Below, in pieces: positions 17,029 through 19,593 of a stretch of 64,000 nt of DNA. The position numbers were made by a program, and so were the translations under genes. The notes under the pieces were generated by a model. The model was not told the DNA's origin. It worked only from the letters and a program-made list of their open reading frames with translations, and ran no database searches. Location of the stretch: positions 124,001 through 188,000 of the forward strand of contig JAJEJD010000032.1 of NCBI GenBank assembly GCA_022828125.1, read 5' to 3'. Each line of letters opens with the position of its first letter. Position 1 is the stretch's first letter. This DNA is from a bacterium (GTDB lineage: Bacteria; UBA8248).

Positions 17029-17056
17029 TTGACGAAAGGAGCACGACATATATACT
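17029..17056 (+). promoter_or_regulatory. Sigma70-like promoter upstream of the NHLP precursor
   Basis: TTGACG (17029-17034), 16-nt spacer, TATACT (17051-17056), in a locally AT-rich stretch. Confidence 0.5.
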
Positions 17057-17214
17057 TTTATTATAGTTTCTTCGTCTTTTCTTCTTTCTCGGGCGAAGGG
17101 ATTGCTAGGCAGCCACTCTCTCCCGAGCATTGCGGCCGTGTCGCCACAGCAGTGGAGAATGGGGGGACACCACCTCCATTTCGGCCAGGGACATATTCTG
17201 GAGAACTCGAAGCA

Positions 17215-17502
17215 GTGAAAACCGTAGAGGAAGTACGCGAAGAAATTATCAAAAAAGCAAGCGAGAACGAGGCATTCCGCGCTGAATTGGTGGCCAACCC
17301 CAAGACCACCATTGAAAAGGAATTGGGGGTCACCATTCCCGAGGGGTTCAAGATCGGCGTGCACGAAGACAATATCATGAGCATCAACCTGGTGTTGCCG
17401 CCGGCCGAGTTGAGCGAGGAGGACCTGAGCGTCGTCGTGGCCGGTGCACAGGCGTGGCAGGAATTCGCCAACGCCTGGAACAGCTTGAACCAGAACTCCT
17501 GA
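17215..17502 (+). CDS. NHLP (nitrile hydratase leader peptide) family RiPP precursor
   Basis: GTG start with upstream GGAG; MKTVEEVREEIIKKASENEAFRAELVANPKTTIEKELGVTIPEGFKIGVHEDNIMSINLVLPPAELSEEDLSVVVAGA|QAWQEFANAWNSLNQNS: NHase-alpha-like leader, VVAGA cleavage-like motif, short C-terminal core. Confidence 0.85.
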   Translation: MKTVEEVREEIIKKASENEAFRAELVANPKTTIEKELGVTIPEGFKIGVHEDNIMSINLVLPPAELSEEDLSVVVAGAQAWQEFANAWNSLNQNS

Positions 17503-17633
17503 TACGATATATCCAAATAGAGCAACAGTCCATTCGGTCGGTTCGCCGAAAAGCCCCGGGAAGGGGATGGTTCGGGACGCCGCTTTGCGGGTTTGAACCG
17601 CGTTGCGGCCCGCTTCGCCGAAGGGAGGCCGGG

Positions 17634-17708
17634 ATGTCGCACTTGCTCATCGCCTCCTTGCCCCCAATGTATGCGTCCCGCCTGCAAACAGGGTTCGATG
17701 ATGTCTGA
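17634..17708 (+). CDS. Candidate 24-aa small ORF between precursor and downstream gene
   Basis: ATG preceded by GGGAGG with 5-nt spacing; MSHLLIASLPPMYASRLQTGFDDV; its stop overlaps the start of the next gene. Confidence 0.35.
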   Translation: MSHLLIASLPPMYASRLQTGFDDV

Positions 17709-18795
17709 GAATTTCGGGGACGCCTTTCCAAGGTTGCGCCGCTTCGTTCCATCGGCCTTACTCGACGGCCCGTGGTGGGACCGCCTGGTGGAACGCGTCG
17801 GTGAACTTCCGAGTTGGCTGACTCTGAATTACGCGGCCTTCGAGTTTCGGCTGGGAGACCCTGCGCCCGCCGCCGATTATTTCGTCTCGGTTGCGCCGCG
17901 GCGTCCGTCCATGGCGTATTACGTTCGTCTGGGCGAGGCCGCAAAACCCGGCTCCGCGGAGGCGGCCCTCGGCCGCGTCTATGCTCTCATGAACGGGGCG
18001 GGTCCTCCTTCCGAATCATCTCTCACCGGCTGGTTCCGGGCGTCGATGCTCGAATACGACATCGCGGAGGTCCCCCCGAACCTGCGCCCGGCCCCGGGCG
18101 TGTTCCTGGCGCTCAAGCCTCAATCCGAACTGGATGAAGCCGTCGCGGGTTCAAGAACGCCCTACCGCCTGGCCGCCACCATAGCGAACGCGGTCGGGTG
18201 GGAGGAGGACGAGGCGGAACGCCTCGCCGTGGAGCGGGCCTTCGCCGCCCTGCCCAGAAGCGGCGTGGTGGACCAGATCGGCGCCGCACCCGAGCGCGAA
18301 CAGCGTTCGGTGCGCCTCATCGTGGACGGGTTGAAATTGCGGAACGTTCCGGCGTTCCTGAAACGGCTGAAATGGAACGGCCCCGCCCAGAAAGTGATGG
18401 ACACGCTGGAGGAGATGCGCGATATGACGCCCGTCTTCCGGCTGGCGCTGGACGTCTCCGCGCGCGGCGTGGGGCCGCGCCTGGGCCTCGAGATGTACAG
18501 GCCGAAAAAAACCTCGGACCTCGACTACTGGCTGAACTCGGGGCGCAACGCCTGGCGTCCCGTCATGAACTACCTCGAAGAGATGAAATGGTGTCTGCCG
18601 CAGAAGGGGGACGGCCTGCGCGCCTTCCCGGGGATCGAGAGACTCCTGGAAGATAAAGGCATGTCCATCCTGTATAAGGGAATCAACCACTTCAAGCTTT
18701 CGATCGAGGGCGACGCCGTCGAGGCCAAGGCCTACGCCGCCCTCGCCTACTTCCGGCTCTACGCCGACCCGGAGGGTGAATCCGAACTGGGGTGA
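17698..18795 (+). CDS. Uncharacterised protein, candidate NHLP-associated factor
   Basis: ATG at 17698 (or 17701); MMSENFGDAFPRLRRFVPSALLDGPWWDRLVERVGELPSWLTLNYAAFEFRLGD...RLALDVSARGVGPRLGLEMYRPKK...; no family recognised with confidence. Confidence 0.7.
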   Translation: MMSENFGDAFPRLRRFVPSALLDGPWWDRLVERVGELPSWLTLNYAAFEFRLGDPAPAADYFVSVAPRRPSMAYYVRLGEAAKPGSAEAALGRVYALMNGAGPPSESSLTGWFRASMLEYDIAEVPPNLRPAPGVFLALKPQSELDEAVAGSRTPYRLAATIANAVGWEEDEAERLAVERAFAALPRSGVVDQIGAAPEREQRSVRLIVDGLKLRNVPAFLKRLKWNGPAQKVMDTLEEMRDMTPVFRLALDVSARGVGPRLGLEMYRPKKTSDLDYWLNSGRNAWRPVMNYLEEMKWCLPQKGDGLRAFPGIERLLEDKGMSILYKGINHFKLSIEGDAVEAKAYAALAYFRLYADPEGESELG

Positions 18796-18847: not shown

Positions 18848-19174
18848 CTACGAAATCGCGCTATCCCCCGCCGTGAGGACGACGTGCTCGGCCCGGACGC
18901 GCTCTCGGAAGCGCGCGGGGGTGGAACCCCAGACGAAAACGTCCACGCGAAAAGGCAGGTTGCTCTCCTCGAAGGCTTCTTTCAGATCGGAAACCCGGCG
19001 GCTTTGAGCGGGATCTGCGAACACGACCATATCCAGATCGGATTTGGGACGCGCCTCTCCCTTGGCGCGGGAGCCGTACAGCCAGGCGGCGGTGTTCGGC
19101 AGATGCTTATCGAGCAAATCCAGAATGAGTGCGCGCTGCGCCTCGGTGATGTCGACCCGTCCGCTCATTTCCAA
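18848..19174 (-). CDS. Minimal nucleotidyltransferase (MNT) of an MNT/HEPN toxin-antitoxin module
   Basis: AAWLYGSRAKGEARPKSDLDMVVFAD: GSRAKG...SDLD nucleotidyltransferase motif. Confidence 0.85.
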   Translation of the reverse strand: MEMSGRVDITEAQRALILDLLDKHLPNTAAWLYGSRAKGEARPKSDLDMVVFADPAQSRRVSDLKEAFEESNLPFRVDVFVWGSTPARFRERVRAEHVVLTAGDSAIS

Positions 19175-19593
19175 CTCCGCCCGCTCATGGTTCGGTAGAG
19201 GGCCGCTGCGTCCTCCATGAAGTCGCCCACTACCTCCAGGGCGGCTCGCGCCTTCTCGCCGCTATAGGCGTGGGCGGTATCGACGCGCCCCTCCGCATAG
19301 CCCAGCCATCGCTCCACAGGGGCGGGTATCAAGTCGTTCTCGAAGGCGAGTCTGAAGATGGGCTTGGGGCTGTTCGGAGAATCCGCGACGCCCAGTTCTT
19401 CGACCAAATATCGCTTGAGCACCTTCCAGAGGCAGTCGTAGCAAGTCTCGAAACGCTGGATGACCGACTCGGCGACGGCTTCCTGGAGCAGTTGGGGTAG
19501 CGCCGCATCAAGGTTCTGGTAATTCTCGTATTGCTCCTCAAGACGTCCGAGGGACATTTGAAAATTATCGTACTCAACCATCATGCGCCTCAC
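19165..19593 (-). CDS. HEPN-domain protein, HI0074-like nucleotidyltransferase-substrate-binding family
   Basis: NFQMSLGRLEEQYENYQ..., ESVIQRFETCYDCLWKVLKRYL, RVDTAHAYSG (RX4H motif); overlaps the MNT gene by 10 nt. Confidence 0.82.
   Translation of the reverse strand: MRRMMVEYDNFQMSLGRLEEQYENYQNLDAALPQLLQEAVAESVIQRFETCYDCLWKVLKRYLVEELGVADSPNSPKPIFRLAFENDLIPAPVERWLGYAEGRVDTAHAYSGEKARAALEVVGDFMEDAAALYRTMSGRSWK

Follow-up and report, generated by a model that had tools for sequence, protein, structure and literature searches.

The sponge RiPP proteusin (srp) cluster was reportedly defined by Nguyen et al. in JACS in 2021. As described in PMC10858898 and PMC10286304, the srp cluster of sponge microbiomes combines an LCCCW core with a YcaO enzyme and a Trp brominase (SrpE, SrpC and SrpI). 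SrpI needs the L(X)4L motif (PMC10858898) and a Trp at or beside the C-terminus, LCCCWAAA being left unprocessed (PMC10286304). The L(X)4L motif is also needed by the prenyltransferase MppC of the cyanobacterial mpp lanthipeptide, an ABBA enzyme that depends on a Nif11-like leader and geranylates Trp (PMC12715784). NctPC, a fusion of a prenyltransferase with a terpene cyclase, attaches a C20 group to Trp and cyclises it afterwards (PMC13290415). The cyanobactin F-family, for instance PagF (5tu6) and LimF (7vmw), has the ABBA fold and peptide substrates, and PagF/LimF-type enzymes work after leader removal.

The locus compared here lies in a window of 64,000 nucleotides, the whole stretch analysed (C30:124001-188000), in a 3.9 Mb assembly of a Nitrospinota lineage, whose nearest named relatives are Nitrospinota MAGs. 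By our reading of the isolate names these MAGs originate from marine sponges, and the host bacterium is by the same names a sponge symbiont. We read the locus as a two-gene RiPP module, in which a proteusin precursor would be prenylated under the guidance of its leader by its own enzyme of predicted ABBA fold, P365 (Table 1), and give this reading a probability of about two in three. It resembles the mpp system in the predicted fold class of the enzyme, the long structured L(X)4L leader, the core Trp and the encoding of the enzyme with the precursor, MppC (PMC12715784) being set beside P365 by description. It differs in having an NHLP leader and a Cys-free linear core, whereas mpp has a Nif11-like leader, a macrocyclic lanthipeptide core and a LanM. 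With the cyanobactin F-family P365 would share the fold and the use of a peptide substrate, but no sequence similarity was detected and the structural match is weaker than that to bacterial indole enzymes.

Table 1. Features of the locus, in positions of the window.
Feature	Position	Strand	Description
Promoter-like element TTGACG-N16-TATACT	17029..17056	+	conserved island, 6/6 species aligned
NHLP (proteusin) RiPP precursor	17215..17502	+	95 aa, GTG start, GGAG ribosome-binding site; TIGR03793
L(X)4L recognition motif LSEEDL	17410..17427	+	leader residues 66-71; from sequence
Predicted core AQAWQEFANAWNSLNQNS	17446..17499	+	18 residues, after VVVAG; putative cleavage site
Trp88 codon	17476..17478	+	invariant 7/7; putative prenylation site, by analogy with MppC and NctPC
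P365, predicted ABBA-fold prenyltransferase, srp family	17701..18795	+	364 aa; AlphaFold2, Foldseek, srp homologues

Within the NHLP family the precursor is unremarkable. It matches TIGR03793 (leader_NHLP) with an E-value of 8.5e-19 and 67.2 bits, the NCBIfam cut-off being 50.9, which bears out the NHLP leader recognized in the first-pass annotation; the proposal of a RiPP locus, here a proteusin one, with an unusual core is likewise supported. The leader ends in VVVAG, of the GG/AG type found in proteusins. TIGR03793 scores above the cut-off in 7/7 genomes of the genus versus 0/14 control genomes. Among the species of the genus the GGAG site and the GTG start are conserved, the precursor evolves with an omega of 0.28-0.44, and the TTGACG-N16-TATACT element forms an island around which the aligned upstream DNA diverges; a scan with the promoter consensus found 1 occurrence against 0.4 expected in shuffles. 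With its genus-wide conservation, an omega below 1 and the promoter island, the precursor is not a chance open reading frame. Weak additional matches to TIGR03793 are explained by a fusion of nitrile hydratase/thiocyanate hydrolase type on contig C5 (L006:1402-2223, minus strand), probably a genuine enzyme with the metal motif CTLCSC.

The core was earlier placed after VVVAGA and given 17 residues; a length of 18 is likelier, because alignment with SrpE-type precursors (AG|LCCCW) favors cleavage after ..VVVAG. Its end, AWNSLNQNS, is identical in 7/7 species of the genus, and its first half varies (QAWQEF, QTWQQF, GSMLDL). The two Trp residues pointed out before are both present in the window, but only the second, Trp88, is invariant, the first being replaced by Met in 2/7 species. 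Cys is absent from the core, and its last residue is not Trp: Trp88 lies 8 residues from the C-terminus. Lanthionine and azole chemistry on this core was rejected, as already suspected, there being no Cys in the core and no LanC domain in the whole genome. Bromination by SrpI was likewise set aside as unlikely, since that enzyme requires its Trp at the C-terminal end or immediately beside it (PMC10286304).

The second gene begins 198 nt downstream of the precursor gene in the same direction; its start is the ATG at 17701, or alternatively an overlapping one at 17698, and its stop codon ends at 18795, so that the coordinates given in the first pass (17698-18795) are right to within one codon at the start. 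P365 found no match in Pfam, NCBIfam or the PDB by phmmer or hmmsearch, and hhalign against NphB gave no signal (probability 0.6%). Because sequence homology to known prenyltransferases was not found, the predicted function rests on the predicted fold. The AlphaFold2 model, built with 56 relatives, has a pLDDT of 87.9 and a pTM of 0.87, and consists of five alpha-alpha-beta-beta repeats in a ten-stranded barrel. When the model was searched against the PDB with Foldseek, the best 35 matches were all ABBA prenyltransferases. Each of the 28 matches at E<=1e-3 belongs to this class, with AmbP1 the best (2.3e-7) and AmbP3, FAMD1, NphB, EpzP, CymD, CloQ, AnaPT, CdpNPT, DMATS1 and FgaPT2 among them; PagF follows at 5.7e-3. 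The TM-scores are moderate (0.41-0.55), with an rmsd of 7-9 A. The neighbor, left without a family in the first pass, thus has the predicted fold of an ABBA prenyltransferase and not a housekeeping one, and P365 would represent a divergent ABBA prenyltransferase family recognized from its predicted structure. The viral Foldseek library also gave two uncharacterised cyanophage proteins that share this fold, A0A0E3HAV3 (E 8.5e-6) and A0A1D8KJE1 (E 9.5e-5).

A domain search of the window found no YcaO, LanC-like, radical SAM or C39 domain, in agreement with the first-pass annotation. A radical SAM maturase was among the candidates looked for, and no radical SAM match falls inside C30:124001-188000. 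The earlier proposal of a new RiPP locus without a canonical maturase is not supported if it is taken as a stand-alone system, since the lack is an effect of the window: YcaO, brominase and NHLM exporter are all encoded in an srp cluster of the same genome, and the enzyme family belongs to the srp type. The only YcaO and the only C39 peptidase of the genome are both on contig C19, where a 370-aa paralogue of P365 (31% identity, E 9e-38) adjoins the YcaO, a 772-aa protein fused to a leader-binding domain. Near the paralogue are a second NHLP precursor with the core LCCCW, a Trp halogenase, an NHLM HlyD protein, an NHLM C39 peptidase/ABC protein (ABC1; 854.4 bits vs 853.3), a second NHLM ABC protein (ABC2), a fusion of an NHLP leader with a squalene-hopene-cyclase-like domain, and a fatty-acid-desaturase/GlnE-like fusion. 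This is a complete srp cluster, with SrpE core, SrpC, the Trp-6-brominase SrpI and the NHLM exporter. The desaturase domain is joined to a GlnE-like nucleotidyltransferase domain in one gene (L009:1360-3756, minus strand). The window itself has a member of the 370-aa srp family in P365, but not the LCCCW core beside SrpC and SrpI: its core is AQAWQEFANAWNSLNQNS, the srp genes are on C19, and the module consists of precursor and P365 only, with no YcaO, brominase or cyclase adjoining. A link between the two loci is seen in the sister species G001, where a window-type pair and MNT/HEPN genes are followed by srpI-HlyD-ABC1-ABC2 (L028), the rest of the srp cluster being on another contig (L039). 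ABC2 is split between them, with residues 1-781 on the L028 contig and 770-977 on the L039 contig, so that the second piece takes up where the first stops; as judged by eye, the contig ends share 36 bases, one of them mismatched. The two contigs are inferred to be neighbors.

When 84,980 species genomes were scanned, 132 relatives of P365 came to light, and 80 of these were fetched for study of their loci. They come from Nitrospinota, Acidobacteriota, Alpha- and Gammaproteobacteria, Gemmatimonadota, Latescibacterota, Nitrospirota and Myxococcota. An NHLP precursor is found within 2.5 kb of 68/80 and a YcaO within 300 bp of 62/80, so the relatives occur mostly near such precursors and not away from them. 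The srp-cluster clade accounts for 73 of the 80, usually touching the YcaO; in this clade a YcaO lies within 300 bp in 61, an NHLP precursor within 2.5 kb in 62, and a leader-fused cyclase is present in 56 loci, some of the gaps in these counts being due to truncated contigs. In a quick tree the window-type proteins form a separate clade with long branches between. The family is new to Pfam and NCBIfam and is tied to proteusin leaders, its activity as ABBA prenyltransferases being predicted. A 368-aa protein of G085 (L126:991-2097, plus strand) has a C-terminal motif similar to that of the family (RLHHIKI...AKAY) and matches the profile weakly (E 1.3e-4); it may be a remote member of the family in a non-srp context with no RiPP context visible.

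The two-gene module would work as follows. The precursor would be expressed from its own conserved promoter, and its folded NHLP leader, with the L(X)4L motif, would dock on the prenyltransferase. With a diphosphate as donor, P365 would then attach an isoprenyl group of C5 to C20 to one of the core's side chains, the indole of Trp88 being the likeliest; there is no cis-linked gene for the prenyl donor. The srp-encoded C39 peptidase/NHLM exporter, the only one of the genome and on the other contig, would act in trans, cutting after ..VVVAG and exporting the lipidated 18-mer. The earlier suggestion that the neighbor is the modifying enzyme gains from its predicted fold and from the precursors near its relatives, which make this the best reading of the neighbor. 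Trp88 is the best acceptor candidate because it is the sole invariant aromatic residue of the core and because MppC and NctPC both act on Trp; given activity, the odds that it is the acceptor are about even.

Alternatively, P365 may be an ABBA prenyltransferase that does not act on Trp88, prenylating instead a different position, such as Ser or the N-terminus of the core, or working in trans on the SrpE product; the precursor would then be left unmodified or receive its modification elsewhere. The acceptor could be a residue other than Trp, since deep-branching relatives are paired with Trp-less cores, LCCCGI in L077 and L098 and LSCCL in L096, and ABBA enzymes of the cyanobactin type are known to prenylate Ser, Thr, Tyr, Arg, His and Trp (PMC12715784). 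Nevertheless, precursor and P365 are adjacent and conserved together in 7/7 species, and a dedicated paralogue for SrpE is already present in the genome, so this alternative is unlikely. Such cores belong to a second srp-like precursor type (LCCCGI, MCCCGI, WCCCGQ/N, LSCCL) without a C-terminal Trp, observed in L077, L096, L098, L035, L036, L048, L075 and L093; in the fetched DNA of the first three no brominase or leader-fused cyclase was found.

Among the positions at least 95% conserved across 56 relatives, 46/48 are kept by P365, including the near-invariant D59, R199, R205, H330, K332, K343 and Y345. The conserved charged and aromatic residues are compatible with a functional diphosphate-binding barrel, as judged from the sequences. 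They also weigh against the proposal that P365 is a catalytically dead ABBA-fold partner, which would bind the leader or serve as a chaperone for a trans-acting maturase, either the YcaO or SrpI. Such a role would agree with the lack of sequence relation between P365 and active prenyltransferases, and non-catalytic peptide-binding proteins are known from other RiPP pathways, such as that of crocagin (title and abstract of PMC10070186). However, the charged and aromatic residues on the barrel strands are nearly invariant in the relatives and retained in P365, the core offers no Cys to a YcaO, and Trp88 is too far from the end for the C-terminal Trp that SrpI needs (PMC10286304). A dead partner is improbable.

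The precursor-P365 pair occupies one syntenic place, after a permease gene, in 7/7 genomes of the genus, and is followed in several, contig permitting, by genes for cytochrome c', an amidohydrolase and gatB/gatA. P365 was not found in other genera of the family. In a second sample of 386 genomes, around the lineage of the window and across the domain, the P365 family was found in the genus and in two genomes of one other genus, with one very distant match besides. A pair of MNT/HEPN type, nucleotidyltransferase and substrate-binding protein (18848-19593, minus strand), separates P365 from the cytochrome c' gene; it is present in G000, G001 and G003 and absent or degraded there in G005, G006 and G002. 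That the precursor-P365 pair is a decayed, functionless srp remnant is hardly credible: it is detached from the srp cluster in most species, and a broken C-terminal fragment of a P365 gene lies elsewhere in the sister genome G002 (C35), but the pair is intact in 7/7 species with a P365 omega of 0.22-0.28, and its promoter, ribosome-binding site and core end are conserved.

The leader-guided prenylation proposed for the module may extend to the srp cluster, where a gene on C19 (L009:3838-5139, minus strand), with counterparts in L031-L100, joins an NHLP leader to a domain resembling class II terpene cyclases. The DLDS motif is kept in 30/30 aligned leader-fused cyclases, and an AlphaFold2 model of moderate confidence (pLDDT 73) leads in Foldseek to drimenol synthase, MstE and squalene-hopene cyclase. 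Like NctPC (PMC13290415), srp clusters bring together an ABBA prenyltransferase, here predicted, and an MstE-like class II cyclase; unlike it, they have them as separate genes with the cyclase fused to an NHLP leader, and the window module has no cyclase. Because srp encodes both, its peptides may, by analogy, be terpenoid-peptide hybrids, which would account for two srp genes left unexplained in the available parts of the srp literature. Prenylation is not mentioned in those parts, and no report of a prenylated proteusin was found in the literature searched, which left the defining 2021 paper out; priority for the assignment of the family's function is uncertain. Tentatively, at somewhat less than even odds, the family would be an undescribed one of leader-guided ABBA prenyltransferases serving proteusin pathways across the sponge microbiome; together with the leader-fused cyclase it would turn the srp product into a brominated terpenoid-peptide hybrid containing thiazoline, and the module in the window would be a minimal proteusin system, only prenylated, that this Nitrospinota genus has spun off.

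Our analysis bears on srp clusters, which are widespread in sponge microbiomes and whose peptides are still unseen; the kinship with P365 suggests that these peptides carry lipids. The assignment of a prenyltransferase and a cyclase predicts a lipidated or terpenoid srp peptide and can guide the hunt for mass shifts. The module in the window, in which a single enzyme accompanies the precursor and no further chemistry is encoded in cis, would be the simplest test bed for the leader-guided prenylation predicted for the P365 family.
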